Source of the DNA: Geobacteraceae bacterium
Lineage (GTDB): Bacteria > Desulfobacterota > Desulfuromonadia > Geobacterales > Geobacteraceae
Assembly (NCBI GenBank): GCA_023701365.1
Contig: JAMPXD010000008.1
Coordinates: forward strand, 1 to 41,699
Length of the DNA: 41,699 bases
Direction of reading: 5' to 3'
The position numbers and the translations under genes were made by a program. The notes under the pieces are model-generated. The model was not told the DNA's origin, did no database searches, and was given only the letters and a program-made list of their open reading frames with translations. This document shows, in pieces, positions 26 through 23,722 of the stretch. Numbering within the stretch: position 1 is the first letter of the stretch; every line of letters begins with the position of its first letter.

Positions 26-145
26 GTGCAAAGGGGAAAAGTGAAAAGCACGCAACCAAAATCAAATAAGTCAATTTTACATTTTGCATTTTGCACTTTG
101 CACTTTGCACGGTTCATCCCGCACTTTGCACTTTGCATTGCCTTT
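26..145. repeat. Heptamer GTGCAAA/TTTGCAC element, copy 1
   Basis: A left arm of GTGCAAA/GTGAAAA units (26-50) and a right arm of TTTGCAT/TTTGCAC units (77-110 and 129-141). The right arm encodes the hydrophobic core of the pentaheme lipoprotein signal peptide. A further unit (TTTGCAT, 11-17) lies at the window edge. Confidence 0.85.
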
Positions 146-679
146 CTCACCGGCTGCGACCCCCTGACCCGCCACAAGGCCCTCACCACCATCTTTGACG
201 GCGTCCCGAGCATGCCTTCCGCCGAAGAGTACTGCCAGGACTACCATGAGCGGGCCAAGGCGGCTGAGCTGGTTGCGGCGGCCCGGAAGGAAGGGGACAA
301 GAAGGCCGACGGACAGGGTTCGACCCGGCATCTACCGTACGAGGAAAAGCGGTGCAACGATTGTCACGACCAGCAAAAGGGGGGAGCCGGGGGGCTCATT
401 CTGCCGGCGCGGGAACTCTGCTTCTCCTGCCATACCGACTTCATCAAGGGGCCCTATGTCCATGGGCCGGTCGCCGTGGGTGACTGTCTCGCCTGCCATC
501 TGCCCCACACCTCTTCCTTCGGCTATCTGCTGGCGAGGAACAAGGGCGAGATCTGCGCCAGGTGCCACCAGGAAAAGCGGCTCGCCGCCGAGATGCACGA
601 CCAGTTCGCCGCAAAAATGATGGCATGCGCGGACTGCCACAATCCTCACTTCGGCAACGCCCGCTACTTTTTCAAATAG
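41..679 (+). CDS. Pentaheme c-type cytochrome lipoprotein of an outer-membrane conduit
   Basis: Seen: five CXXCH heme sites (CNDCH, CFSCH, CLACH, CARCH, CADCH), several followed by a residue and a second His as in doubled-CXXCH/cytochrome c3-like domains. The N-terminus has a basic stretch, a hydrophobic core and a lipobox FLTGC with the modified Cys at about residue 39, so it should be a lipoprotein. The hydrophobic core (HFAFCTLHFA...HFALCIAF) is written by TTTGCAC/TTTGCAT heptamer DNA repeats. I chose GTG 41 because GGGG at 33-36 can serve as ribosome binding site; GTG 26 is in frame but lacks one. Placed 120 bp before a beta-barrel gene, it is likely the periplasm-side or surface heme wire of a porin-cytochrome complex, by analogy with pentaheme lipoproteins of Geobacter Ext conduits (analogy from memory). 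The promoter lies outside the window. Confidence 0.85.
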   Translation: MKSTQPKSNKSILHFAFCTLHFARFIPHFALCIAFLTGCDPLTRHKALTTIFDGVPSMPSAEEYCQDYHERAKAAELVAAARKEGDKKADGQGSTRHLPYEEKRCNDCHDQQKGGAGGLILPARELCFSCHTDFIKGPYVHGPVAVGDCLACHLPHTSSFGYLLARNKGEICARCHQEKRLAAEMHDQFAAKMMACADCHNPHFGNARYFFK

Positions 680-792: not shown

Positions 793-846
793 GTGTGCAA
801 AATGAAGCGTGCAATGCAAAAACTACAATGCCTTTATTGTGCACTC
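793..846. repeat. Degenerate heptamer element at the porin start
   Basis: GTGCAAA, GTGCAA and ATGCAAA units are followed by ATGCCTTTATTGTGCAC. This is a decayed copy of the same left arm/right arm layout and it covers the possible start codons of the beta-barrel gene. Confidence 0.55.
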
Positions 847-2853
847 TCGATCGGAAAATATTTTCCGGCCCGGTTTCTCATTTTCACCACCCTGCTTCTG
901 ACCCTGCATGCCGGGGAATCCTCCGCCAAGCAAAGAACGTTACTGCAACTGGGCGGGTTGCGGCAACAAATCTCCCTCGACTACACGTACGACGGTGCCG
1001 TCTCCGAGAGTAACGAGGTAACTACTTCAGCCAGCCAGCAGAGATTCGACGAGAATTACGCCATGGGTTTGCGGTATGCCATTTATGATCCCCGCCTTCT
1101 CACTGGCAGCTTCTCCGGAACCGCCGGCCTTACCCAGTCTCAGGAATTGGAGGGCCAGGCCCTGGGGGGGACCGACTCCGGACAGAACTTTCAGTACCGT
1201 CTCACCGGCATGCTGCTGCAACGGGAATCGACACCGGTCACATTTTACAGTTATTCCCAGCTCAACCGGGTCCAGCGGCCGTTCTCTTCCAGTTACGACC
1301 TGACCACCGACGGTTTCGGGGTCGCGATGTCGATACACAACGCGCAGGTCCCCTCGACCATAAGCTACAGCCGGAGCAGCGCGGCCACCAGTGGGCAGGG
1401 GATCGACACCAACTCCACCGGTGATTCCCTTTCCCTGTCCGCCTCCCACAGCTACCGGAACCTGGTTTCAACCTCGGCAAGCTTTTCACGGAGCAGCTCC
1501 GAAACCGATTCCGGCGGGAATGCGGAGGCGACATCCAGCGATGCATACCAGGTGGGCCTTACCAACAACCTGAACATCGACAACGCACGAGGCAGGGCAC
1601 TCCTCACCAAATATCAGTTGCGGAATACAGCAGGCACAAGGTCGACACGGTCTTCCGAATGGACCGAAAACCTGTCATGGGGGTTCGGTAAGGCACTCTA
1701 TGGCGGCCTGAACTATGTGAACAGCTACGAAAACAGCGGCGACCAGAAGGCGACGGCCAACAGCGGCGGGGCCTTTCTGCAGCATCGCCTCTTCGCAAGC
1801 CTGTCGACAAGCCTGAATGGCCATGTCAGCCATTCCGATTTTTCCTCCGGCAGTGTCAGCTCCGTTGGCGGGGGGATCTCCCTCGACTACCAGAAGACAC
1901 TCCCCCGTGAGAGCCTGCTGCAGCTCACCGCCAGCCAATCCTTGTCGGTATCCGAAAACGAGTTGCGTGAAGATGTGCTGTTCGTGACCAACGAACGCCA
2001 TACCGTACCCGATCTTGTCACCGTATTTGAATTCGAACTGGTGAAATCGGACATCATTCATGACGTCCCGGGAGACATCGTCGTGATGAACCGGGACCGG
2101 ACCTTCACCTATACCGAGGGGACCGATTATACGATACGCCAGGATGGGCGGCTGACCTTTGTCGTCTTCCCTCTCACCCCTGCGCCGGGGCCGTTTCCGA
2201 TTACCGCCGGCGTGGAGCTCACCATTGATTACCGCTATCGGGTTGACCCGTCCATAAAATATTCCACCTCAAGCCGCGCCGTTTCGGCCAACCTGTCGCT
2301 CTTTTCCAGCCGCCACAGAATCTATGCCAGCTATGCCGACTCCGACCAGGAGGCCATCTCCCAGCAACAGGATGCCTCCCGTCTCAACGAGAGCCGCCTT
2401 TACACCGTCGGCTATACCGCCAGGCTGGAGTACAGCTCCTTTGCGGTGGCATATCGCCGGCAGGAGTCCACCACTTCCGACAGCGATAACCTGAGTGCAT
2501 CCTGGAGGTTTGCCCGGAATTTCGGCAATAACTACCTGTCCGTGTCCCTGCGGGACAATTACTCCCTGTATGGGAAAAGCGGCGTTGACGGAAACGGGGA
2601 TTTCTCAAACGCCTTCAGCCTGGACAGCGTGTACCAGAAGGTGCTCTACGGACGAATCAACATGCGGCTGAACGGCCAGTATGTTAACATCATGGGACGC
2701 ACGGAAAGCGACACGGTGGCGCTCGGGCTCGACCTCAGCACATGGTTCGGCAGGAGCGAGCTGGTGCTCCAGTCGTCAGTAGACTGGCGCTTCAGCGGGA
2801 CAACCGCAGAGCGGCACGACAATGTCAAGCTGACTTACAGGCGGCACTTTTGA
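802..2853 (+). CDS. Outer-membrane beta-barrel (porin) of the cytochrome conduit
   Basis: About 683 residues with a signal peptide (basic start, core FLIFTTLLLTL, cleavage near ESSA-KQ), then a long series of alternating polar/hydrophobic segments rich in Ser, Thr, Tyr and Asn, ending in Arg-Arg-His-Phe. A C-terminal Phe after alternating residues is the usual outer-membrane beta-barrel signature. There is no heme site. Its position between multiheme cytochromes fits the large porin that sheathes cytochromes in Geobacter porin-cytochrome complexes; strand number cannot be counted reliably by eye. Start is uncertain: GTG 793, ATG 802 and ATG 814 are in frame with no good ribosome binding site. 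The start region (793-846) is itself a degenerate GTGCAAA...TTTGTGCAC heptamer element, so the signal peptide n-region is repeat-derived, as in its neighbours. Confidence 0.8.
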   Translation: MKRAMQKLQCLYCALSIGKYFPARFLIFTTLLLTLHAGESSAKQRTLLQLGGLRQQISLDYTYDGAVSESNEVTTSASQQRFDENYAMGLRYAIYDPRLLTGSFSGTAGLTQSQELEGQALGGTDSGQNFQYRLTGMLLQRESTPVTFYSYSQLNRVQRPFSSSYDLTTDGFGVAMSIHNAQVPSTISYSRSSAATSGQGIDTNSTGDSLSLSASHSYRNLVSTSASFSRSSSETDSGGNAEATSSDAYQVGLTNNLNIDNARGRALLTKYQLRNTAGTRSTRSSEWTENLSWGFGKALYGGLNYVNSYENSGDQKATANSGGAFLQHRLFASLSTSLNGHVSHSDFSSGSVSSVGGGISLDYQKTLPRESLLQLTASQSLSVSENELREDVLFVTNERHTVPDLVTVFEFELVKSDIIHDVPGDIVVMNRDRTFTYTEGTDYTIRQDGRLTFVVFPLTPAPGPFPITAGVELTIDYRYRVDPSIKYSTSSRAVSANLSLFSSRHRIYASYADSDQEAISQQQDASRLNESRLYTVGYTARLEYSSFAVAYRRQESTTSDSDNLSASWRFARNFGNNYLSVSLRDNYSLYGKSGVDGNGDFSNAFSLDSVYQKVLYGRINMRLNGQYVNIMGRTESDTVALGLDLSTWFGRSELVLQSSVDWRFSGTTAERHDNVKLTYRRHF

Positions 2854-3001
2854 GTGCAAATTGCAAAATGCAAAATGCAAAGTGCAAAATGAAAAAACTG
2901 GAAAGCGAAAAATGAAAAACCGGCAAGAAACTAAAATAAATTTGCACCTTGCACTGTCTTTTCGATTTGCACTTTGCATTTTGCACTTTGCACTTTGCAC
3001 T
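2854..3001. repeat. Heptamer element between porin and NHL gene
   Basis: GTGCAAA/ATGCAAA units (2854-2890) face TTTGCAC/TTTGCAT units (2939-3000) around a roughly 50-bp A-rich core. The arms are mutually complementary, so the unit could form a long hairpin. The right arm is translated as the h-region of the NHL lipoprotein. Confidence 0.88.
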
Positions 3002-4000
3002 GCCTTAATGTCCGGCTGCGCCCGGCCACAGCTGGTGGCAACGCCTGCACCCGTGATAGCGCCGGTCTGGCCCTCGCCCCCCCTGGAGCCGCGGATCGAA
3101 TGGGTCAAGGAGATCCGCGATTACCGGGGTGCCGGAGTGGACCGGGGATTCTGGAAACGGGCCTGGGACTTCATCGCCGGGGAGGAGGAGGCGCGCATCA
3201 TCAAGCCCCACGGCGTTTACTTTGATGACATGCAACGGCTCTTCATAGTCGACGCCGGGGGAGCGCAGCTCCACCTCATGGACATGAGGAAGGGGCGTTA
3301 TACCCTCATCCGTCACGAAAACGGCAACGGTTTCCTTTCCCCCGTGGGGATATCCGGGGATGACGGCGGGAATGTCTATGTGACCGACTCGGGAACGGCC
3401 GTTATCTTTCGCTACAGCCTGCAGGACGATTCGCTGACCCAGTTCACCTCTGTCAAGTTCGCCCGACCGACCGGGATCGCCTTCAACAGGGCGAACCGGC
3501 TCCTTTACGTGGTTGATACCGCCGCTCACCAGGTGGTGGCGCTCGACATGACAGGGACGGAGCGGATCAGGTTCGGCTCCCGGGGGCACGGGCCGGGGCA
3601 GTTCAACTACCCAACCGACATCTGCATTGACGGGACGGGTCAGGTGATAGTGACCGACGCCCTGAACTCCCGCATCCAGATCTTTTCTTCCAGCGGCAAA
3701 CCACTCACCGCCTTCGGACAGGCCGGGGACGAGATAGGTCATTTCAACAAGCCGAAGGGGGTTGCGGTCGACAGCGACGGCCATATCTACATCTGCGATG
3801 CCCTGCATGACGCGGTCCAGATCTTCGACCCCCAGGGACAGCTGCTCCTCAGTTTCGGAGAAAGCGGCCAGGAGCCAGGACAGTTCTGGATGCCATCCGG
3901 CATCCATATCGATGCGAATGACTTCATTTACGTGGCCGACTCCTTCAATCAGCGGATTCAGGTATTTAAGTACCTGAAAGAAGTGCAAAGTGAAAAGTGA
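2912..4000 (+). CDS. NHL-repeat beta-propeller lipoprotein
   Basis: A 362-residue protein with NHL blades. Characteristic motifs are G-x-GPGQFNYPTDICID, VIVTDALNSRIQIF, HFNKPKGVAVD, IYICDALHDAVQIF and FIYVADSFNQRIQVF, consistent with a six-bladed propeller. The N-terminus ends in the lipobox ALMSGC (Cys at about 36), so it is probably a lipoprotein. Its h-region (FALCILHFALC) is encoded by TTTGCAC/TTTGCAT repeats and the preceding basic region by GTGCAAA/ATGCAAA repeats. ATG 2912 is chosen because GGAAAG at 2900-2905 sits at good spacing; the frame is open back to 2861. NHL proteins often accompany multiheme cytochromes in Geobacter clusters, and a structural or docking role in the conduit is inference. 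It follows the barrel gene after a heptamer element and precedes the S23-type gene by 3 bp. Confidence 0.82.
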   Translation: MKNRQETKINLHLALSFRFALCILHFALCTALMSGCARPQLVATPAPVIAPVWPSPPLEPRIEWVKEIRDYRGAGVDRGFWKRAWDFIAGEEEARIIKPHGVYFDDMQRLFIVDAGGAQLHLMDMRKGRYTLIRHENGNGFLSPVGISGDDGGNVYVTDSGTAVIFRYSLQDDSLTQFTSVKFARPTGIAFNRANRLLYVVDTAAHQVVALDMTGTERIRFGSRGHGPGQFNYPTDICIDGTGQVIVTDALNSRIQIFSSSGKPLTAFGQAGDEIGHFNKPKGVAVDSDGHIYICDALHDAVQIFDPQGQLLLSFGESGQEPGQFWMPSGIHIDANDFIYVADSFNQRIQVFKYLKEVQSEK

Positions 4001-4015: not shown

Positions 4016-4378
4016 ACCAGTGAAAATCCGAATAGAAATAACCAGCTTTCTGAGCGCTTGCTGGACTTTGCCGCAAGCATTATCAAAACTACAACCATGC
4101 TTACCAAAGGAGAAGCCAGCTGTCATATTTTCAAACAATTAATGCGTTCTTCCACCTCTGCAGGGGCCAATTACGAAGAAGCACGTGCGGCTGAAAGTCG
4201 TGCCGATTTTATTCACAAGCTCCAAATTGTCTTGAAAGAATTACGCGAATCTATTTATTGGCTACGCTTAACCCAAAAGACAGATCTTATGAAAGTTGAT
4301 CAGCTTGTCCAGGAAGCCAGGGAATTGACCAACATTATTGCAAAGTCAGTAGTAACAGCGAGGAAAAGAGCAAAATGA
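4004..4378 (+). CDS. S23-type four-helix-bundle protein
   Basis: A 124-residue, highly helical protein matching the S23/IVS four-helix-bundle family: FAASIIKTT, a Ser-Ser-Ser/Ala-Gly-Ala-Asn-Tyr-Glu-Glu-Ala-Arg-Ala segment, a Lys-Leu-x-Ile-Val-Leu-Lys-Glu helix and E-S-x-Y-W-L-R-L. The family was first known from insertions in 23S rRNA of some bacteria and is often free-standing; it shares its fold with the Avd protein of diversity-generating retroelements (established knowledge). Function here is unknown. The GTG start lies inside a GTGCAAA array and its TGA stop overlaps the ATG of the next gene (ATGA at 4375-4378), allowing coupling. Heptamer arrays in opposite orientation frame the gene (3983-4015 and 4408-4508), so it may be the passenger of a repeat element rather than an original member of the conduit operon. 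Confidence 0.8.
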   Translation: MQNETSENPNRNNQLSERLLDFAASIIKTTTMLTKGEASCHIFKQLMRSSTSAGANYEEARAAESRADFIHKLQIVLKELRESIYWLRLTQKTDLMKVDQLVQEARELTNIIAKSVVTARKRAK

Positions 4379-6222
4379 CCGTAAATCGCAAAACACGAGT
4401 CTCCAAAACTTTGCACTTTGCACTTTGCACTTTGCACTTTGCAGTTTCTCCCGCACTTTGCACTTTCAACTTTGCACTTTGCATTTTGCACTTTGCACTT
4501 TGCACTTCTTTCGCCCTTGAGCCGTCGATGAGCATCTCCGATCCTCACAACCGCCACAACCTTTCGACCACCGGCCCCGGTCTCCCCGGGGTAACAAAGG
4601 ACACCCAGCAGAGGCAGATCTGCATCTTCTGCCACACTCCCCATCATGCCACATCCGTCACCCCGCTCTGGAGCCGGGACCTTTCCGAGGAAACCTACAT
4701 CCCCTACGTATCCACGACGCTGCGGGCCACTTCGCGCCCGGGCCAGCCGAGCGGCGCATCGCGGCTCTGCCTCAGCTGCCACGACGGCACCATAGCTCTC
4801 GGCATGCTCGCGGGGGAGCGGCAGATCGCCACCCTGCCGCAGCTCCCGGCGGAGCGCGCTTCCAACCTGACCAGCGACCTTTCCGACGACCATCCGATCT
4901 CCTTTTCCTATGCCTCCGCTGTCACCTCCAACAGCGGGCTGCGGCAACCCCAGGAACTCCCTGTGCAGATACAACTGGAAGACGGCAACCTGGAATGCAC
5001 CTCCTGCCACGACCCCCACCGGGACCTCTACCCGCCGCCCGCCAAACCGACCGAGAGCGGAAAATTCCTGGTCCTGGACAACAACGCCAGTTCAGCGCTC
5101 TGCACGGCATGCCATTCCAGGGCGGGACTGACTGACGGCGCCCACTATCTGTCGGACGATGCCTGCGGCAAATGTCACGCCCCGCACAAGGCCCAGCAGC
5201 TCCAGCGGCTGCTGAAGGGACAGACCCTCCAGGATACCTGCCTGCAGAGCTGCCACAACGGCAGCGGCCCGGTCAGCACCACCGGGAGCAACATCCAGGC
5301 CATGCTGAGCCAGCCAAAGGCCCACCGGAGCAGCAGCGGACTGTTGAGCGGCAGCCACGACGCCGCCGAGAACCCCCTTGATTTCACCTCGGCCAACAGT
5401 CATGTGGAATGCGTCGACTGCCACAACCCCTGCCTGACCAGACACGAAACCACCCCCCTGTCCAATCCGCCCTGGATCAACGGCCGCCTGATCGAGGTAA
5501 CCCTGACGAGGGCGGCCGACGGCACCCGGACCATGGCCACTCGTGAATACGAGATCTGCTTCAAGTGCCACGACTCCGTACCCTTTACGCTGGCCGCCTC
5601 CGTCACCGTCAGCCGCAAGATCCCGACGCTGGACGAGTCGGCCCGTTTTTCTCCGGACAACCCCTCCTATCACCCGGTCATGGCGGCAGTGAGAGGCGCG
5701 GACGTTGCCCCCGTTCCCAGCCTCAGGGCGGAGATCCTGGGCACTTCCCGGCAACTGACGGTCGGCGGCATGATCTACTGCTCGGACTGTCACAACCCCC
5801 ACGGCGCTCCGCCTCCGATCACCCACCTGCTGGTCGCCGAGTACCAGCACACCTCCCAGCCATACAGCTACAGCAATTTCGAACTCTGCTACCGCTGCCA
5901 CCGGGAGGAGATCATCATGAGCCCGGCCCAATCGTCGTTCCCGAACCACAAATCCCACGTGGACCCCGACCCGGTTGTCGACCCGCTGGGGAGACATACC
6001 GGCAAGGAGGTTCCCTGCTCTGCCTGCCACGACCCGCACGGGGTGCCGGTAACGCTGGGGGGGACCACCACGGCCAATGCCCACCTGATCAACTTCGACA
6101 CGAACATCGTCAGCCCGGCGACCCCCGTGCCGGTCTACACGGCCACCTCCCCCGGCCACGGGTCGTGCACCGTCAGCTGCCACACCACGGGGAGCCCCGA
6201 CCCGCAGACGCATGCCTATTAA
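4375..6222 (+). CDS. Dodecaheme-type secreted c-type cytochrome
   Basis: A 615-residue protein with ten CXXCH sites (CIFCH, CLSCH, CTSCH, CTACH, CGKCH, CVDCH, CFKCH, CSDCH, CYRCH, CSACH) and two CX3CH sites (CLQSCH, CTVSCH), so up to twelve hemes. Many sites continue as CHxPH or CHDPH, the doubled-CXXCH pattern. Residues 1 to about 50 form an export signal made almost wholly of heptamer-repeat translation (LHFALCTLHFA and FALCILHFALC) ending near SFA-LEPS, a plausible signal peptidase I site; there is no lipobox. Start ATG 4375 overlaps the stop of the S23-type gene. As the last gene after pentaheme lipoprotein, barrel and NHL protein, it is the likely extracellular cytochrome of the conduit, receiving electrons through the barrel for minerals or electrodes. 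Family assignment is firm; the exact acceptor is unknown. Confidence 0.88.
   Translation: MTVNRKTRVSKTLHFALCTLHFAVSPALCTFNFALCILHFALCTSFALEPSMSISDPHNRHNLSTTGPGLPGVTKDTQQRQICIFCHTPHHATSVTPLWSRDLSEETYIPYVSTTLRATSRPGQPSGASRLCLSCHDGTIALGMLAGERQIATLPQLPAERASNLTSDLSDDHPISFSYASAVTSNSGLRQPQELPVQIQLEDGNLECTSCHDPHRDLYPPPAKPTESGKFLVLDNNASSALCTACHSRAGLTDGAHYLSDDACGKCHAPHKAQQLQRLLKGQTLQDTCLQSCHNGSGPVSTTGSNIQAMLSQPKAHRSSSGLLSGSHDAAENPLDFTSANSHVECVDCHNPCLTRHETTPLSNPPWINGRLIEVTLTRAADGTRTMATREYEICFKCHDSVPFTLAASVTVSRKIPTLDESARFSPDNPSYHPVMAAVRGADVAPVPSLRAEILGTSRQLTVGGMIYCSDCHNPHGAPPPITHLLVAEYQHTSQPYSYSNFELCYRCHREEIIMSPAQSSFPNHKSHVDPDPVVDPLGRHTGKEVPCSACHDPHGVPVTLGGTTTANAHLINFDTNIVSPATPVPVYTATSPGHGSCTVSCHTTGSPDPQTHAY
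4408..4508. repeat. Heptamer right arm after the S23-type gene
   Basis: At least eight TTTGCAC/TTTGCAT units with two short interruptions. Fully translated as the signal peptide core of the dodecaheme-type cytochrome. Confidence 0.88.
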
Positions 6223-6756: not shown

Positions 6757-9700
6757 ATGACGGGAAAATCACTAAGAAAAGCCGCAGCACGGTCGGCTTT
6801 GCTTCCCGCCGCAGCCCTGCTGGTTGGGCTGGCAGGAGGCACGGCGCTGGCCTACAATGCGGCGCACGACAATATCGTGCTCAAGGACGCGGGTGGCAAT
6901 AACATCACGATGAGCGGCGCCGGCAACGCCTACAGCGTACAGACCACCTGCTTCACCGCCAGCTGCCACGGCACCGGCAGCGGCTCTCTGGCGTTCACCT
7001 ACGACCAGATGGAGAAGCACAACTACCACGCCATGAACGGCTCCAACGAGGTTCGTGGCTTCAACGCCTGGAACCCCGACGGGGTGCTACCGAATGGCGA
7101 CGCCGACCCGCTGCGCCGCGGCGTCGCCACCCAAGGGAAAAACTGGGTACAGAGCCCCGGCCACGTGGGGAACTGGTGACCGCCGTCCGCTCGCCAGTTG
7201 GCGAGAATGTTCAAAGACGGTGCAGGCACCACCTATGATTCGGCAATTGCCAAGTACATCTCCGTTCCCTTCGGGATGACGGCCGCTCCCACGACTGCTA
7301 ACCCGACCGGCACCGCCAACGTTCCGGCAATCGGAGCTACCGCGGCGTATGAGCCCTTCAACTTCACCGACGCGGCAGGCCTGGAGAAGAAGGCCGACAA
7401 CACCTTGGTCGGCAACATGATGGACTGCGGCGAGTGCCACGTCGGCGGCGGCGCCATGCAGTACATCCCCAACTACGCCGCAGCCAGCCCGATGGCCGGC
7501 ACCTCCAACCCCGGTGCCCGCATCCCGCTCCGCACCGCAGGCACGACCGGCGGTATCCTCGCCGGTTTCTGGACTACCTTCAACTCCTTCATCGACATCT
7601 TCGGCCCGGCAGGCGACGGCGCCAGCCCCTCCTACCAGGCCAAGCAAATCGACTACGCCGACTCGGGCGTCCTCGAGATGGACTGCCTCGTCTGCCACCT
7701 GAAGGACTACAGCTGGGAGAATCGCAGGGACGCGGTCCGCATGGCCAAGTTCGACGCATCCCGCGCCTACGGTGCCGGCATCGCCACCCTCGCGACCGCC
7801 ACTACCGACATGAGCGGCGCGACGATCGTGACCAACGGCCGGAACGTCATTTACGACCCGGCCAAGGTGGCCTTCGTGAACGGCTCCACCGCCTCCAACG
7901 GCATCAAGCTCGTCTCCGCCGTGGCCCAGAAGATCACCGCGGTGCCCGACGCCAACAACTGCGCCTCCTGCCACTTCGCCACCGTCAAAGAGAAGTACCA
8001 GGTCGAGTGGAAGAAGCGCGGCGAGTTCTGGGGCGGCAGCGAGGCCCACACCGGCATCGGCTGCATGGGCTGCCACCAGCGCAAGGACCGGACCGTCAAC
8101 GGCGACATCGACACCGCCAACGTCGGCACCTCCGGCATCGCCAACTCCAACAACAAGAAGCTCGGCCTGTGCGACCCGGCCAAGGGCGCCGACTGCGACT
8201 ACGACGCCCAGTGGGGCGCGGTCGACAAGGTTGCCTTCAAGGCCTGCAACGACTGCCACCAGGATACCGCAGCGGCCACCGCGACCTATCCTATCGATCT
8301 CGCCAACGGCGAAGACTACGGCGCACCCAAACCGGCCGACATCCACAAGGCGTTCGGCCTCGCCGACATGATTGCCTACAATGCTGACGGCACTGCCGCC
8401 AACCACCTGCAGATCATCGACTGCACCACCTGCCACGCCAGGAAGCTCGATGCAAGCGTCGCCCTGTACGACGCGGACGGCGCCTTCAGGAACTACACCA
8501 CCTTCCCGATCACCGGCGGCGCCATGGTCGACGGCACCGGCACGGATGAGCAGGGCCGCCTGGCGGTCCATGACGAAATTGCTGTCGAGCGCGAGATGAA
8601 GGACAACATCGCCCTCTACTGGAAAAACGGCAAGCTGTTCGTCGGCAACCTCCTCTCCTCCTTCCTCATCCGCGACGCGAACGGCCTGTTCGACGCCAAC
8701 AACGACGGCCGCGGCCCGGGCCTCGACCCGGCCCTCCCGACCCACACCGCACGGCTGAACGAGGCCGCCGGCCTCCACGCCCTGACCCACGACGGCGTGG
8801 TGGACGGTACCGAGGTCGCGACGATGTTCACCAACATCCAGACCAACCTGAAGCCGATGATCGGCTCCGGCAGCCTCGAGACCATCGTGCCGAAGATCTC
8901 CATCATGGGCGTGCCGTTCAAGGTAAGCCACAACATCGCTCCGAAGATCAGCGCCTGGGGCGTCAAAGGCTGCAAAGAGTGCCACAGCTCAACCAGCAAG
9001 TTCATGAGCAGCTTCATCGACATCTCGCCGAAGACCGACTTCAGCTGGAACGCCGGCCAGTTCGCCAACATCCAAAAGGTCAACGGCTCGACCCAGCCGA
9101 GCGACATCCACGCCCAGGTCGTCGAGAAGAAGGGTGTGCGTTCGGTAGCGGTCAACTACGCCAACAACAGCAATACCGACCTGTCCACCGGCTTCCGTGA
9201 CGTGCAGAAGGCCGAGCTGCTCTACGAAGCGACCTTCACGAAGCGCGACTCCACCTACAAGTCCACCATCACCGGCACTTCCCGCCCGGTCCCCGGCGCG
9301 GCCAACAGCCCGTGGTACAACGCCGGCGCCTCCGTACCCGGCACCACCGTCACCGCCGGCTGGACCATGAAGATCGAGGCGGCGCCAGAAGGTTCCGCAG
9401 CCACCGTAAGCCCGACCGCCGTCCGTACCTTCTCGGTCACCAGCGGCACCCTGACCAGCGTCGACGCCCTCATCACCCACATGGGCGCTGCCTTCACCAC
9501 CGACCTGCCCGAGTTCACCATCGCCGGCATCGACACCAACGCCGACTTGGTCAACGACGCAATCGAAATCACCGCCAAGGCAGGCTTCCAGGTTCGTCTC
9601 TCCAACCAGACCGACGTCGGTCCGTTCGGCCTGACGGGCGCCCTCTGGATTGCCGACCCGATCACCCGCAACAACGCTTACACCGGCGACGCGGACCTTG

Positions 9701-10740
9701 TTCTCACCGGCCGCAGCGACTACTTGAACTACTTCCATGGCATCGGCGCAGCGCCTGCAGCCGGCTTCACCATCAACGGCGCCGCCACCGACGCCTGCGG
9801 AACGCTCGCCACCCCCTGCGCGGCGCCTACAGCGGCCCTGATCACCTTCGCCGCACCTGCCGGCGCGGCGACCACCACCTACTCCTGGACCTTCTCCGAC
9901 GACACGTCGAAGAACACCACCGGCGCCACCGCCACCAGGACCATCAACACGGTCAAATCCTTCACGGTCACTCTCCTGGCGAAGAACACCACGACCGGCG
10001 ATGTAACGACCACCAAGAAGATCGTCAAGACCGCCGCTATTGCATCGGCAGCTCTTACCGGCGTCGACACCACAGCCACCGGCGATACCACCGTATCGCT
10101 TACCGGCCTGCCGACCCACTCCAAGCTGTATGTGAAGTGGGGCGACGGAACCGAGCAGTACGTCACTTCTTCGGCTGCCGCGATCGATCTGACCCACAAG
10201 TATCTCAAGACCGGCACCATGAACGTGGCGATCAACATCATCAACGGCACCACCCTGGTAGCCAAGAAGACCTGCGCTATCACCGTCAAGCCGGTCATCA
10301 CGGCCAGCGCGGTGGTCAACGGGACACTCACCCCTGAAGATGTAACTCAGATCCTGAGCGGTGCCAACCAGACCTACACCATCACCCCCACCGCCGCCCC
10401 CTACGCCGGTTACGCCATCGCCAATGTCCTGGTGAACGGCGCCTCCGTGGGACCGGTGGCCAGCTACACCTTCACCGGCCTGACGGCGCCGAGCAGCACC
10501 ATCTCGGCAACCTTCAAGCCGACCATCAACGCCGTGCAGACCGCCAACGGGAGCATTGCACCCGCCGGCGTAACCCCGGTAACCAGCGGCGGGAGCCAGT
10601 ACTACACCATCACCCCCGCCAACGGCTACCACGTGGAAAGTGTCACGGTTAACGGACAACCCGCCGCGGTGGCCACTTCCTACAACTTCACCAACGTGAC
10701 GGAGCCGCAGCAGATCACGGCGATCTTTGCAGCGAACTAG
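6757..10740 (+). CDS. Giant multiheme c-type cytochrome with in-frame UGA (predicted selenocysteine 141)
   Basis: Start ATG 6757 follows AGGAG at 6742-6746 and opens a clear Sec signal peptide (MTGKSLRKAAARSALL..., cleavage near ALA-YN). The frame meets TGA at 7177-7179 and stays open to TAG 10740; nothing resembling a start or signal peptide follows the UGA. With readthrough the protein has 1327 residues: CX4CH at 65, the motif WVQSPGHVGNW-U-PPS at Sec141, then seven CXXCH sites at about 224, 310, 402, 436, 497, 556 and 739. From about 1030 there is a PKD-like beta-sandwich, a second beta domain and two bacterial-repeat (InlB-like) units, suggesting a surface location. A hairpin of SECIS type follows the UGA, and the paralogue at 18980 has the same arrangement. 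Role: probable extracellular or outer-membrane electron transfer or an enzyme using a heme/selenol site; substrate unknown. Automatic annotation would split it at 7179/7198. Confidence 0.85.
7177..7220 (+). promoter_or_regulatory. UGA selenocysteine codon and SECIS hairpin 1
   Basis: TGA at 7177-7179 is followed by stem CTCGCC (7190-7195), loop AGTT and stem GGCGAG (7200-7205). An outer helix CCGTC (7183-7187)/GACGG (7216-7220) can extend it. Known bacterial SECIS elements have a 4-16 bp stem, a G within the first two loop bases and 16-37 nt between UGA and loop; here the G is loop base 2 and 16 nt separate UGA from the loop. SelB recognition is inferred. Confidence 0.75.
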
Positions 10741-15489: not shown

Positions 15490-16164
15490 CTACCGCCAGC
15501 TTTCCACGTCAATCAGCCCGAGGCGGGCAGCGTACCGCAGCAGCTCCATCTTGCTGTGGACGCCGAGCTTCTTCATCAGATTGGCACGATGATTTTCCAC
15601 GGTTTTTGCGCTCAGGTCGAGGCGGGCAGCGATCTCTCTCGAGGGGACCCCCTCCGCCACCAGCCGCATCACTTGCTGCTCCCGGGGTGAAAGAAGGCCG
15701 TAACGCTCATCCTGAATGGCGGTCTCCTTCCCCGCCCCGGCCACCAGTTTGGCGACGATGTCCTGGGACACCTGGCCGTCCAGGAAGTATTCGTCCCGGC
15801 AAAGGGCATCCATCGCCTGGACCAGCCGGGCGCTGGTCGTCTCCTTCACTACATACCCCTTGGCGCCGGCCTTGAACGCCTCGGCCACGTAATCGAACTT
15901 CGGATACATGCTGAGCATCAGTATCCGCACGCTCGGGACAACCCTGATGATCTCCCGGACCGCATCGATGCCGCTCATATCCGGGAGCGACACATCCATG
16001 GTGATCAGGTCGGGCTGCAACTCCCGGGCCAGGCTCAGGGCCTCCGCGCCGCTCCCTGCCTCGCCCACCGTCTCGTACCCGGCGCTCCTCTCCACCAGCC
16101 CCTTCAACCCATCCCGGAACAATGGATGATCGTCGACGATCAGTACCCGTTTCTTTTCAGGCAT
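15490..16164 (-). CDS. NarL/FixJ-family response regulator
   Basis: A 224-residue protein. The receiver domain (about 1-120) has the acidic pair in VLIVDDHP, phosphoacceptor Asp in LITMDVSLPDMSG, and the conserved Lys in YVVKE. A LuxR-type helix-turn-helix follows (LSPREQQVMRLVAEGVPSRE, AKTVENHRANLMKKLGV). ATG at 16164 is chosen because GGGAGA lies just upstream; a frame extension to 16197 exists. It lies downstream of and on the same strand as a histidine kinase gene, with a repeat element between, and is the likely partner. Target genes are unknown; the sigma-54 promoters nearby would need a different, AAA+ type activator, so this regulator is not expected to act there directly. Confidence 0.92.
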   Translation of the reverse strand: MPEKKRVLIVDDHPLFRDGLKGLVERSAGYETVGEAGSGAEALSLARELQPDLITMDVSLPDMSGIDAVREIIRVVPSVRILMLSMYPKFDYVAEAFKAGAKGYVVKETTSARLVQAMDALCRDEYFLDGQVSQDIVAKLVAGAGKETAIQDERYGLLSPREQQVMRLVAEGVPSREIAARLDLSAKTVENHRANLMKKLGVHSKMELLRYAARLGLIDVESWR

Positions 16165-16180
16165 AAATAAATCTCCCACC

Positions 16181-16296
16181 GTCTCTCGCCCGCTCACTCC
16201 GTCCGCTAGAGCACACAGAGATCGCAGAGAAACCCCTTGTATTCTTTTGTTTTTTAGATTTGCTCTGCGAGCTCTGCGAGAGACATGTTTTCAGAA
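16181..16296. repeat. 110-bp palindromic repeat, copy A
   Basis: Begins with CTCTCGCCCGCTCAC and ends with CTCTGCGAGAGA; same order of blocks as 34605-34712. It separates the kinase from the regulator gene. Arms are imperfectly complementary here (AGAGCACACAGAG versus CTCTGCGAGCTCT). Confidence 0.78.
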
Positions 16297-16323: not shown

Positions 16324-17820
16324 TCAAGCTAACTCACACATGGACATAACGCCACTGAGAAATACGAAAAATCCCTTTTTCAGTTTAATACCTAAACCTT
16401 GAGACTGGTCCTTTTGCGGAACCGGACTGATGGGAACCTCAACGACGATCCGGGTCCCTCCACCGGGGCGCGACACCACCTCGAAGGTGCCGCTCAAAAG
16501 GTCCACCCGCTCCGCCATGCCGACCAGGCCGAGCCCCCCCCCGCTCTTCACCGCCGGGCCTTCCATGTCGAACCCCCTGCCGTTGTCCTCGATCCGCATC
16601 CTTATGATGGGATGGGATGCTATCAGGCGGACGCCGACTGCGGTTGCCCTGGCATGCTTGATGACGTTATTGAGGGCCTCCTGGAAAACCCGGTAGAGGT
16701 TGATCTCCGCTTCATTATCCAGCTTTATCCCCTTCATGCCGGCGGTCTTGAAGTCTATCCTGAGGCCATGGGCGGCGACCAGTTTCGCGCTGTCATTGCG
16801 GATCGCCCCGACCAGCCCCAGTCTCTCCAGGGAATCGGGGCGAAGTCCGGCGGAGAGGTGGCGGACTGACTGAATGGAATCCTGGAGGACCCTGGAGAGG
16901 TATTGGACCCGCGCCAGGAGGTCTCCTGAACTGTCCGCCAAGTCTTCGGCCAATGTATCGATGCCGATCTTGACGGCGTTCAACCTCTGGCCCAGATCGT
17001 CATGCAGCTCCCGGGAGAGGTGCTTCCTTTCATTTTCCTGGGCGGTCAACAGACGGTGCGACAGTGCCCTTACCTTCTTTTCCGCTTCCTTCTTTCTGGT
17101 GATGTCGCGGGCGACAGCCAGTTTGGTTGGCTGGTCGATGCCCGGCATCCGGATGGCGAGCTCGATTACCGAGTACCAGGACTTGGTCCGTTCGTTGAAG
17201 AACTCCTTGTGAATCGGCTGGTCGGAGGCAAAGACCTTGTCGGTCGAACAGTCTTCGCATCGCTCTTCGAGCCCCCGGCAGACCTTGTAGCAGGGATCGA
17301 CCGTCAGGTCGCCGCAAACCCCCGCCAGCATCTTCCGGTTGGCGTAGACTATCCGGTAATCGTCGGTCACCACGTAGACCCGGTCCTCCATGGCGTCGAG
17401 CAGAAGACGAAGCGTCTCCTGGGTGGCATGCATCGCCTCGCCGATCAGCTTGCAGTCGGTGCGGTCGTGAAACGTCCCGAAGATGGCCGGCCTGCCGCCG
17501 ACCTCGATGCGCCGCGCCTCCACCTCGATCCAGAACGGCGTGCCGTCCAGCTTTGCGGACGGCTGCCCCCAGGCAATCCGGGGAGGGTTGCCGGCCAGCA
17601 CCTGGTCGTGGATCTTGCGGAACAGATCGACGCTCTGCCGGTCGGGATAGACCGTGGCGAACATGTCCCGGTCGAGCAGACCCTCGATGGACGAATAGCC
17701 GAAGATCTCCCCGCACCGTTCGTTGAGGAAGATCGTCCGGTTGTCCTGCAGTACGTAAACGCCGTCGGACAGGTTGGCGACAATGGCTTCAAAGAGTTGC
17801 GGGTATGCTGGTGTGGGCAT
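16324..17820 (-). CDS. Cytosolic PAS-PAS histidine kinase (HisKA_3 type)
   Basis: A 498-residue protein with no membrane segment. PAS domain 1 spans about 10-125, PAS domain 2 about 135-245, then a coiled linker, the dimerisation/phosphoacceptor motif ENERKHLSRELHDDLGQRL (His at the ELHDD box) and a HATPase domain with FQEALNNVIKHA, DNGRGFD and GGLGLVGMAERV boxes. This is the NarX/DegS class that pairs with LuxR-type regulators such as the one downstream. PAS 2 carries a dense Cys set (VCGDLTVDPCYKVCRG, then RCEDC), which could hold a metal or heme cofactor or respond to redox. ATG 17820 follows GGGAGC. The C-terminal tail past the ATPase domain (about 30 residues) is hydrophobic and unlike the family. 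It is 15 bp behind the lipoprotein gene, probably co-transcribed. Confidence 0.9.
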   Translation of the reverse strand: MPTPAYPQLFEAIVANLSDGVYVLQDNRTIFLNERCGEIFGYSSIEGLLDRDMFATVYPDRQSVDLFRKIHDQVLAGNPPRIAWGQPSAKLDGTPFWIEVEARRIEVGGRPAIFGTFHDRTDCKLIGEAMHATQETLRLLLDAMEDRVYVVTDDYRIVYANRKMLAGVCGDLTVDPCYKVCRGLEERCEDCSTDKVFASDQPIHKEFFNERTKSWYSVIELAIRMPGIDQPTKLAVARDITRKKEAEKKVRALSHRLLTAQENERKHLSRELHDDLGQRLNAVKIGIDTLAEDLADSSGDLLARVQYLSRVLQDSIQSVRHLSAGLRPDSLERLGLVGAIRNDSAKLVAAHGLRIDFKTAGMKGIKLDNEAEINLYRVFQEALNNVIKHARATAVGVRLIASHPIIRMRIEDNGRGFDMEGPAVKSGGGLGLVGMAERVDLLSGTFEVVSRPGGGTRIVVEVPISPVPQKDQSQGLGIKLKKGFFVFLSGVMSMCELA

Positions 17821-18979: not shown

Positions 18980-21900
18980 ATGAAGAAGTCACGCATAAAA
19001 ACTTCTTTACTGGTGAGTGCAGCTTCGGTCACCGGTCTGGCCCTGGGCGCGGGAATAGCCCTGGCAGCCCACCCGCCGATTCAGCTCTACACTTATGAGG
19101 AAGTAGCTCAGCAAATGGGCTTCCCTGCCGCGCCGGTCATCGTAGACAAGACCACCAAGCAGGGCCTCCCTTACTCCCCGAAGCAGACCTGCTTCGGCTC
19201 CAAAGATGGCGGCGCTACAAAGTGCCACGGCGATGATCCGGCAAATCCGAAGCTCAAGGCGAACTACAACGACCTCGCCGAGCACGCCTTCCACGCCGAG
19301 CTCGGCTTTGGGCAGTGGATGGACAACTCCGCCAGCGGCAGGTTAGTGAACGCTGGCGTGCAGACCGGCCTGGCTTTGAACAAGCCCTGGGTACAGTCGC
19401 ACGGCCATAACGGCAAGTGGTGACCCCCCTCTCTCCGCCAGGTGGCGGACTACCAGCTTGATTCAAACGGCCAGTACATCGATTACCCCAATACCGCAGC
19501 CTTCCTCAACGGCGCCAGCCCTACAACCACACCCGCCTCACCGGACGGCACCTACTATCCCAAGGTCGACATGTCCCTGTGGGACCAGGCAACCATGTGC
19601 GGGACCTGCCACGTCGGCGGCGTCTTCTATGAGCGCGACCGTCAGGGCAAGCGCCTCCCCCAGAGAGCCTGGGATGACATGATGGCAGGCAAGATCAATC
19701 CCATCACCAGCACCGTCTGGGAAAACTATGACCCGGTTACCGGCGCGGACGCCTCCTTCGTCACCTCCTCCCCGTGGCTCATGCCGGCGTACGAAGGCAA
19801 CGATCCGACAAAACCCGCGATGACCATGCCGTTTGGCTGGGTTCCCGGGCCCATGCCAATGGCCAACAAGAACGGCGTCGACCCGACCAACCCTATGGCG
19901 GCCGACGCGTATCAGCTTGTGGCCAAGCAGTTGATGATCCCGAACGTCAAGGAGATGGACTGCCTCTTCTGCCATTACAACGGGTACGACAACATCCCCG
20001 CCTCGGTCATGACCCAGGCCGGTTCCCTGTACGCCGCCCCCACGGCCGGCGCGGGCCTGTTCGACATGACCCCGGTCAGCCCGAGCTACATGGGGTACAA
20101 CCCGTACAACGGCAAGGTGGCCTTCACCACGGTCAAGACGACGCCGTTGTATGCGAACATGACCACCGCCGCCAACATGATGAACTGGCCGGCGTTCAAG
20201 GCCTACTCCACCCATGAGCTGGTCAGCCTCACCTCCGTCGTGACCAACAACATCGTACCGAAGCCCTCCACCAACAACTGCCTGGCATGCCACGCAACCA
20301 AGACCCTGAAGGACCTCCCCGAGATGTTCGGCGCCACCGGGACGAGCTCCGGCTTCCTCTCCTCCGCGCCGATGATCTACGACCCGGCCAACCCCAACGG
20401 GCCGCTGGGCAAGCGGATGGTCGCCTACGACGTCAAGGCGTTGTTCGCTCTCTTCGGCATGGGCCCCGACCCTGCGCTCACCTCTGCCATGCTCATGGGA
20501 CCCAACGCCGCGGACTACATGATGGGCTCTCTCCCCTGGCCGAACGCCATGGGCAAGACACCCTTCAACTTCGCTTCCTGGAATGACCCCGACGGCTTCA
20601 TCGGCGGCGGCAACGCGGCAGGCGCAACCCCGGCTACCGGACTTGCTGCCGGCGGCCCGCTCTACTACTACAACGTCGACCCGACGACTGGCGCTGCCGT
20701 TGTGGACCAGAACATCCTGAAACGCTCCACCATGCCGTTCCCCCGCGCCGAGTGGTTCAAGCGCGGCGACGCCTGGCAGGACGGCCAGGACGTCCATGGC
20801 AACCTCGGCTGCGCCGGCTGCCACTATACCGGTGACACGGTGGGCGCCAACAAGAACCAGTGCGACCCGGGCCGCGGGTTCGACACGGCGAGCGGCGTCA
20901 TGGACAGCGTACCTCCCCTGGGGCCTGGCGGCATCGTTTATGATCACTACTCCTCCAACGGGAAAGGTGTAGAAGCCGTCGGTGCTGCTGCGATACTCGC
21001 AGCCACCAGGAAAAACGACACCAGGAACACCGTCAAGCGGTGCGAGTTCTGCCACATCACCGGCAAGGACTACTTCGGCAACACCATCAACACCTTCGGC
21101 GCCCCGAACCCGACCGCCAAGCACCAGGCGTACGGCCTGGCCGGCAGCAACGACGACGGCAGCGGCCCTGGGCCTGCAAACGCCAAGGTCCAGATGGTCG
21201 ACCATTACAATCTCCATGGCAGGTATGGCGGCAAAGGGGTCCCCAGGGAAACCAGGTTCGACACCGATGATACCGACGTCGTCAACCTGAGCGGCCCCTC
21301 GGCGGGCACACCGGGCGGGACGATCCTGAACCCGAACGGCAACCACCTCGACGTCATCGACTGCACCGTCTGCCACGTCCATAAGACCTCCATGGCGGTC
21401 CGCTCCCTCGAAGCCCTCAGCGGCATGCGCTTCCCGGCCGTCATCGGCACCGACCCGTCCAAAGGGATGTTCGGCCTGTTCGAAGACCCCACCGGCATGG
21501 GCGCAGCCAACACCGGCATGGGCGGCGCACTCGGTGAGTGGAAACCGCTCGTCATGTGGCAGGCGCAGGGCAACAAGATACTCCCGCTTGACCTTACCAA
21601 CGACAGCAGCGAACTGCCATTCCGTCGCAAGCTCCACCTCAGCAACTCGATCACGGCGATCCTCTGGAACAACGAGGGCTCCACCATCGACGCGAACGGC
21701 GACGGCGCCCCCGGCGGCGACCTGCTTCCCTCTAAACCCTCGCTGGCAGGCCGCAAGGACATCTTCTCCGGCGACGACCCAGACGAGAACAACACCCAGG
21801 GCTATGGCGTGCCGATCTTCGACCCGTGGATCCAGAAGGATCTCAAGGCGGGCTTCAACTTCGGACCGTCCCCGCTCTCCGTCATCTCGGTCGGCTTCGG

Positions 21901-23722
21901 CGCCGACCAGACCGCAACCGGCTACGCAAGCATTTACGACGCCGCCGGCAATTTCAGCACCACCAGAACGCAGTACGCCAGCATCTGGAGCGGCGCGTTC
22001 GTCTTCACCGAGGCCGACCAGATCAAGGCCTACAAAGACCACCGCGGCACTGACTGGGCCGACACCACGATCACCATGGTCGGCGCCCCCTTCATGATCA
22101 CCCACGGCGTCAAACCGGTCAGCCAGCATGTACTCGGCAAGTCGTGCTCGGACTGCCATGCCCCGCAAAAGGGCTTCTTCAAAGGCAGCTTCGACATGAT
22201 CGGCTCCGCCATCCCTGCCAGCACGACCTATAACCCGAGCCAGGCGATCGTGCCGGACTACTACGGCAACATCCAGATCGATCCTGCCACCGGCGATCCC
22301 ATACGCCTTGCCGGCATGCCGGGCATGACTTTCAATGACGCGCTTGCTGGCAGCCCGTTTGCCGGGATGGGGAACAGCATGCTCGTCCGCCCGCTCGAAC
22401 CGATCCGCATCAAGGCCAACAAGGGCGATCTTCGCGGCTACCTGGAAGCCACCAACAAACTGGGCCAGTTCCGCGAAGTCAGCTTCGTGCATGACACTAC
22501 CGACCTTAACCCTGCAACTAGCGAACCGTGGAGCTACGCCTCCACCATCGACCGTTACCAGGCCCTGTATCCGCCCACCGACGGCCACGACACCGCCATC
22601 TACTACAAGATTGGCGACGTCCGCGCCGACGGTACTCCCAAAGCGATAGCCAAGGGAGATACCTATAACGCACTACCGATAACCGGCGCAGAGTACGCGG
22701 CATACCTCGAAACCATCGGCGCAGCGCCCACGGCCAGCTTCAGGATCAACGACCTCGCTCCCGCTCCGGACGGCTGCGGAGCCGTCGCCACCCCGTGCAC
22801 GGCCAACACCGGGGCAATCGCCTTCGCGGCGAATACCTCTACGGTTGAGCCCAACACCACCTACTCCTGGACCTTCTCCGACGATACGTCGAAGAACACC
22901 ACCGGCGCCACTGCCACCAGGACCATCAACACGGTCAAATCCTTCACGGTCACCCTCATCGCCAAGAACAGCATTACCGGCGCAACCGCGACCACGAAGA
23001 AGATCGTCAAGACCCAGGCCCCTGCTGCCGTCGCCCTTACCGGCGTCGACACCACAGCCACCGGCGATACCACCGTATCGCTTACCGGCCTGCCGACCCA
23101 CTCCAAGCTGTATGTGAAGTGGGGCGACGGAACCGAGCAGTACGTCACATCCTCGGCTGCCGCGATCGACCTGACCCACAAGTACCTCAAGACCGGCACC
23201 ATGAACGTGGCGATCAACATCATCAACGGCACCACCCTGGTAGCCAAGAAGACCTGTGCTATCACCGTCAAGCCGGTCATCACGGCCAGCGCGGTGGTCA
23301 ACGGGACACTCACACCGGTCGGTGTAACTCAGATTCTGAGCGGTGCCAGCCAGACCTACACCATCGCCCCGACCGCCACCCTCTACGCCGGTTACGCCAT
23401 CGCCAATGTCCTGGTGAACGGCGCCTCCGTGGGCCCGGTGGCAAGCTACACCTTCACCGGCCTGACGGCTCCGAGCAGCACCATCTCGGCAACCTTCAAG
23501 CCGACCATCAACGCCGTGCAGACCGCCAACGGGAGCATTGCACCCGCCGGCGTAACCCCGGTAACCAGCGGCGGGAGCCAGTACTACACCATCACTCCCG
23601 CCAACGGCTACCACGTGGCAACTGTCACGGTTAACGGAGTCCCCGCCGCGGTGGCTACTTCCTACAACTTCACCAACGTGACGGAGCCGATGGAGATCAC
23701 GGCGACCTATGCAGCGAACTAG
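18980..23722 (+). CDS. Giant multiheme c-type cytochrome with in-frame UGA (predicted selenocysteine 148)
   Basis: ATG 18980 follows GAAAGGA and opens a Sec signal peptide (MKKSRIKTSLLVSAASVTGL..., cleavage near ALA-AH). TGA at 19421-19423 is in frame and the frame then continues to TAG 23722, 1580 residues in all. Order: an unusual C-X10-CH at 71-83 where the paralogue has CX4CH; WVQSHGHNGKW-U-PPS with Sec148; CXXCH at about 207, 328, 434, 611, 688, 795 and 1056; then a PKD-like domain and bacterial-repeat units nearly identical to those of the 6757 gene. The two proteins share segments such as CGxCHVGG after the Sec and MDCLxCH, so they are paralogues of one family. The separate downstream part has no start or signal peptide of its own. 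Likely exported or surface redox protein; substrate unknown. It would be mis-split at 19423/19442 by routine annotation. Confidence 0.85.
19421..19449 (+). promoter_or_regulatory. UGA selenocysteine codon and SECIS hairpin 2
   Basis: TGA 19421-19423; stem TCCGCC (19434-19439), loop AGGT, stem GGCGGA (19444-19449). Loop G is at position 2 and 16 nt separate UGA from loop, exactly as in copy 1, although stem bases differ and the coded peptide (PPSxRQxA) is conserved. Confidence 0.75.

Follow-up and report, generated by a model that had tools for sequence, protein, structure and literature searches.

Does the UGA codon that interrupts a long cytochrome frame in the genome of a Geobacteraceae bacterium terminate translation, or is it read as selenocysteine (Sec), and if so, what kind of protein carries the residue? 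The frame lies in a window (here always the whole stretch of DNA analysed, 41,699 nucleotides) in which not one but two such genes were found. We label them SecA and SecB purely for convenience; no relation to the Sec translocase is meant.

Two interrupted cytochrome genes and the selenocysteine machinery

SecA (6757..10740, forward strand) encodes a predicted exported octaheme c-type cytochrome of 1327 residues including Sec141. Its frame, re-read directly from the sequence, opens with an ATG at 6757, starts with a signal peptide and closes with a stop codon at 10738-10740; it contains a single in-frame TGA (7177-7179, forward strand), which is codon 141, followed by 1186 open codons with seven CXXCH sites, just as an earlier note made from the sequence alone had described. 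The heme site which that note had placed upstream of the TGA is present as well, but its form is CX4CH (CFTASCH) and not CXXCH, giving eight sites altogether. The protein is therefore laid out as signal peptide, CX4CH, Sec, seven CXXCH and a C-terminal region, the latter with a near-threshold PKD match. An AlphaFold2 model of the heme core, built from four alignment rows, reached a pLDDT of only 27 and was not used for fold searches.

The earlier note described SecA alone, and SecB is absent from it. This second paralogue (18980..23722, forward strand) is recovered when the open reading frame at 19442-23722 is extended in 5' direction through a TGA (19421-19423, forward strand) to an ATG at 18980, which yields another octaheme Sec cytochrome, of 1580 residues with Sec148. 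When the two proteins are aligned (GHVGNW-U-PPSARQLA in SecA, GHNGKW-U-PPSLRQVA in SecB), both TGAs fall on one and the same residue, and both genes meet the selenoprotein criterion of a single in-frame UGA at a conserved residue. Over their last 347 residues (9697-10737 in SecA, 22673-23719 in SecB) the two proteins share 85% identity, and their heme cores are far more divergent, a pattern suggesting that a recent domain exchange or gene conversion may have taken place between the C-termini in this genome.

Any decoding of UGA as Sec needs the corresponding machinery, and the earlier note had proposed looking for selA, selB, selC and selD. All are present in the genome: selA scores 621 bits and selB, which includes the SelB winged-helix domains, 371 bits; selC is a tRNA-Sec with the anticodon TCA, and selD has one in-frame TGA of its own. 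It should be noted, however, that among 80 genomes selA occurs in 45 of the 46 with a Sec copy and likewise in 31 of the 34 with only non-Sec copies. Being nearly universal in this set, its presence is consistent with Sec without discriminating, and the idea that Sec and non-Sec copies track selA was rejected for the same reason.

The hairpin downstream of the UGA

A hairpin with a 6-bp stem and the loop AGUU (CTCGCC-AGTT-GGCGAG, 7190..7205, forward strand) starts 10 nt after the UGA of SecA; its loop lies 16 nt after the codon and the MFE of the hairpin alone is -9.5 kcal/mol. Published rules for bacterial SECIS elements (bSECIS) demand a loop of 3-9 nt, a stem of 4-16 bp, a G in the first two loop positions, a spacing of 16-37 nt to the UGA and an MFE no higher than -7.5 (PMC13188914). 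All of them are met, which bears out the earlier note where it had judged this AGTT hairpin, 10 nt past the UGA, to fit the SECIS rules. The counterpart in SecB (TCCGCC-AGGT-GGCGGA, 19434..19449, forward strand) has the loop AGGU and the same 16-nt spacing. Scanning the window against Rfam with gathering thresholds gave no match, so that the case for a SECIS element depends on agreement with the bSECIS rules together with covariation.

For the latter, 90 distinct stretches downstream of the codon in family members yielded 32 distinct hairpins, with a spacing of 16 nt in 80 stretches and of 22 nt in the other 10; a codon insertion displaces the hairpin by 6 nt and leaves its form intact. The loops are AGUU, AGGU, AGUC or AGAU, and 93.8% of the cells pair across the 32 hairpins. 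Their covariation score is 0.460; shuffling gives a mean of 0.104, and slid structures do not exceed 0.140. The shuffle control ignores the relatedness of the sequences, the slid control retains it. Compensatory changes occur even where they alter the protein: CTCGCC/GGCGAG to CTCGAC/GTCGAG also turns Ala to Ser, and TTCGCC/GGCGAA to TTCGGC/GCCGAA also turns Ala to Pro. Shifted stems (CGAGCC/GGCTCG) are found among the variants, too. In addition, the codons themselves appear frozen: at conserved residues of SecA-type genes (17 sequences), codon diversity is 0.018 within the hairpin versus 0.333 outside, a value so low that it was not reached in any of 20,000 random sets, and in SecB-type genes the values are 0.096 and 0.349 (P 0.00065). 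Selection at the RNA level accounts for this pattern, and selection at the protein level alone does not.

A family across the phylum and the residues at its Sec site

The earlier note had also suggested a homologue search with TGA allowed and a look for homologues carrying Cys in place of Sec, and both turned out in its favour. A protein search covering 97 relatives returned full-length homologues that run through the same TGA, each with the codon at the site (two also show a TAA). Profile searches recovered the domain from 45 of the 277 genomes searched within the class and, in a sample of 395 genomes from the whole phylum, from 86. Where the DNA of distinct domain copies with a stop at the site was examined, TGA was found in all 101, TAA and TAG in none, and the residue preceding the TGA invariably is W, F or Y. 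Among 30 homologues without a stop at the site, 13 have Cys (for example, YGGNW-C-SPAPLYRQLA, FGNW-C-PTYQRQL and YGGKW-C-PTAP), offset by about one residue in two of them (L097, L154), and 17 have other residues (Ser, Asp, Gln, Leu and others). In one genome (L153), a Cys copy adjoins two Sec copies. That both the TGA and a covarying hairpin recur in SecB and in 101 copies from across the phylum puts those of SecA far beyond chance; we apparently are dealing with an undescribed selenoprotein family spanning the whole phylum.

On a tree of the family, the Cys label takes three changes and the Sec label eight, both far below shuffled labels. This tree was made quickly and has unresolved forks as well as long branches, so that it leaves the direction of change unsettled. 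Sec is near-universal in types A and B and has been kept together with its SECIS element over deep divergence; on the other hand, some homologues have Ser, Asp or another residue instead, so that not every member requires it. In five Geobacteraceae (L040, L041, L043, L044, L047), SecB and SecA are separated by a third paralogue of the octaheme type, in which Ser takes the place of Sec (e.g. GKWSPFYNRQL); none was seen in the window. Another genome (G171; L089 and L090) contains a tandem array of family members, one copy of which has Asp for Sec (GNWDPPSVRQLA).

Could the UGA be a true stop nevertheless? The gene would then give a monoheme protein of 140 residues, and the remainder would be either what is left of a pseudogene or a protein with a start of its own. 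By translation table 11 the codon is indeed a stop, and the list of open reading frames splits the gene there. Such a remainder would, however, hardly be conserved across the phylum and always in the same frame, nor would one expect every one of the 101 stops to be TGA, a covarying hairpin behind it, or Cys homologues which run as single open frames; we therefore give termination next to no credence. The same holds for UGA being read without SelB as some other amino acid, such as Trp or Cys by near-cognate suppression. This would likewise keep the downstream frame open, yet it leaves unaccounted for the full Sec system of the genome, a hairpin which obeys the bSECIS rules and covaries, and the Cys found in 13 of the 30 homologues lacking the TGA. 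Decoding as Sec, supported by the homologues reading through the TGA, the aligned Cys homologues, the machinery and the covarying hairpin, is in our opinion nearly certain, albeit not shown by experiment. With only slightly more reserve, and in the absence of any experiment or peptide, we hold that the Sec is inserted into an octaheme cytochrome, a statement which leaves aside what the protein does.

For annotation, the consequences are immediate: pipelines which terminate at UGA break each such gene in two, a short piece and a cytochrome lacking its beginning, and can thus overlook large electron-transfer proteins of a family that is widespread in Geobacter-like and related bacteria.

Known systems, the locus and a possible role

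The earlier note could not place in any described family the selenol next to a heme chain that a Sec residue in an octaheme-type surface cytochrome would give. This needs qualifying, since Sec in a multiheme cytochrome has a precedent: Sec in ExtKL was predicted in 2007 (PMC1914089), and ExtKL is the established case of a predicted Sec in a multiheme cytochrome (PMC1914089, PMC5877670). The octaheme family itself passes no NCBIfam cut-off and appears to be undescribed. ExtKL (NF040886; GSU2937-2936 of Geobacter sulfurreducens) is a predicted Sec pentaheme cytochrome encoded in a porin-associated gene cluster (PMC1914089, PMC5877670, PMC6148476), and like SecA and SecB it is a Geobacter-type multiheme c-type cytochrome with an in-frame UGA predicted as Sec. 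Its Sec, however, follows the last of five hemes (TPDG-U-L in the copy of this genome), whereas that of SecA and SecB lies between sites 1 and 2 of eight. Sequence comparison of ExtKL with SecA and SecB found no relation, and NF040886 (cut-off 250 bits) gave no match to either at E up to 1, a Geomonas homologue scoring 10 bits; on both grounds, the curated cut-off and the comparison, an assignment as ExtKL was rejected. The genome has an ExtKL of its own (L180:1501-2574, 340 bits, one in-frame TGA), and is one with at least two unrelated kinds of Sec cytochrome.

Eight hemes, as in SecA and SecB, are also found in octaheme tetrathionate reductase (OTR, TIGR04315; Shewanella structure 1sp3), a family in which a Sec-bearing protein, WP_331457571.1, is listed in a 2026 catalogue (PMC13188914). 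Distant members of our family show partial similarity to the central heme block of TIGR04315 and of TIGR04314 (methano7heme), but all members tested stay far below the cut-offs of 375 and 250 bits, with about 55 as the best score (single-module proteins). TIGR04315 did not match SecA or SecB at E up to 1 either, and identification as OTR was rejected on the curated cut-offs. One member, L171:826-5250, has 16 hemes and carries the Sec octaheme module at its N-terminus; its C-terminal half, without Sec, resembles 1sp3, which it matches over the central heme block only. The catalytic heme of 1sp3 reportedly has a lysine ligand and a nearby cysteine, but no residue of this structure has been shown to align with the Sec region of the octaheme family, and a sequence search of the PDB with the family profile returned generic cytochrome and PKD-like matches only. 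Sec in an electron-transfer context is further known from the GSU2204 family (NF041027), an MtrB/PioB-like selenoprotein of the outer-membrane beta-barrel type (PMC13188914); at E up to 1, neither SecA nor SecB matched NF041027. With no relation found to ExtKL and the scores for TIGR04315 and TIGR04314 far below their cut-offs, we regard the octaheme Sec cytochromes as a selenoprotein family that is new, although the kind of system is known, and not as members of ExtKL, TIGR04315 or TIGR04314. No paper on this family was found in a literature search, which missed most subscription journals.

The neighbourhood of the two genes offers some hints on their role. Four genes on the forward strand are syntenic with Sec genes, in several genomes in the case of the first: a multiheme cytochrome with doubled CXXCH motifs (26..679), a strand-rich exported protein ending in Phe (793..2853), an NHL-repeat beta-propeller protein (2861..4000) and, directly upstream of SecA, another multiheme cytochrome with doubled CXXCH motifs (4375..6222). 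Between SecA and SecB, the reverse strand encodes a response regulator (15490..16197), assigned by inspection of the sequence without a family scan and found in this position elsewhere too, and a PAS sensor histidine kinase of the HisKA_3 type (16324..17820), whose place between the two is conserved. The strand-rich protein has no family match in Pfam or NCBIfam, and its model, built from two alignment rows, is all-beta with a pLDDT of 31 and was not used for fold searches; that it probably is an outer-membrane beta barrel is our inference. Gene order is partly shared around Sec copies in Geomonas diazotrophica (L005) and in more distant genomes (L100, L101, L102 and L105). We read the whole as a conduit-like electron-transfer locus with an inferred barrel. 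In common with the porin-cytochrome conduits extABCD, extHIJKL and oetABI it has cytochromes and a strand-rich candidate porin side by side; it differs from them in the additional NHL propeller, the two-component pair and the two Sec octaheme proteins, and its barrel is unproven.

Taken together, the following course of events can be proposed. SelB with Sec-tRNA(Sec) would bind the hairpin that starts 10 nt past each UGA and place Sec at residue 141 of SecA or 148 of SecB, within the motif W-U-x-P-S-x-R-Q between heme sites 1 and 2, and translation would run on into the octaheme c-type cytochrome, whose eight hemes would be attached after export. The mature protein most likely would act as the terminal reductase, or as a redox partner, of a porin-cytochrome-type conduit formed by the neighbouring cytochromes, the strand-rich protein and the NHL propeller and controlled by the adjacent two-component system, with a selenol near a heme where a substrate or ligand would sit; we are unable to name a substrate. 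The readthrough, the SECIS element, the machinery and the synteny are supported, to the extent that sequence and comparative evidence allow, and heme attachment, the location of the protein (including the cell surface) and its part in a conduit are inferred.

The occurrence of Cys in some lineages, and the fact that Sec has been kept over deep divergence, suggest that the residue is reactive; without a structure, a catalytic function cannot be told apart from heme ligation or redox buffering. A catalytic selenol beside the hemes seems to us slightly less likely than not, the inference being weakened by the unknown distance of Sec to any heme. More tentative still is the full proposal, in which SecA and SecB are duplicates from an undescribed, phylum-wide family of Sec octaheme proteins at a conduit-like two-component locus, and the heme-adjacent selenol is where an extracellular or periplasmic reductase, representing a novel class of selenoenzyme, has its active site. 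Sec might instead be inserted without taking part in catalysis, as a heme ligand, a structural residue or a redox buffer in a purely electron-conducting protein. The conduit-like neighbours would fit this, as would the Ser in the third paralogues of several Geobacteraceae and the Asp, Gln or Leu elsewhere, which indicate that the fold tolerates its loss; the near-universal Sec of types A and B, kept with its SECIS element, and the three changes that the Cys label takes on the tree argue against it, and we regard a non-catalytic Sec as a serious but somewhat doubtful option. In bacteria, termination at UGA competes with SelB-dependent insertion of Sec, and the codon could thus also work as a selenium-dependent switch, giving a secreted monoheme fragment when selenium is low and the full octaheme protein when it is available. 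The signal peptide and the heme site upstream of the UGA would allow export of such a fragment; no conserved feature pointing to a function of it was seen, however, and a dual output appears unlikely. Should the selenol beside a heme chain, which we set out above, prove true, its chemistry would be unusual and would link electron transfer outside the cell or in the periplasm to the supply of selenium, a question that cultured relatives such as Geomonas diazotrophica make directly testable.

Finally, the octaheme domain is not confined to free-standing cytochromes: in two proteins (L169:897-3491 and L178:728-3382) the Sec-containing domain is fused to a formate-dehydrogenase gamma-type cytochrome b, which suggests that quinone-linked versions of the family exist.
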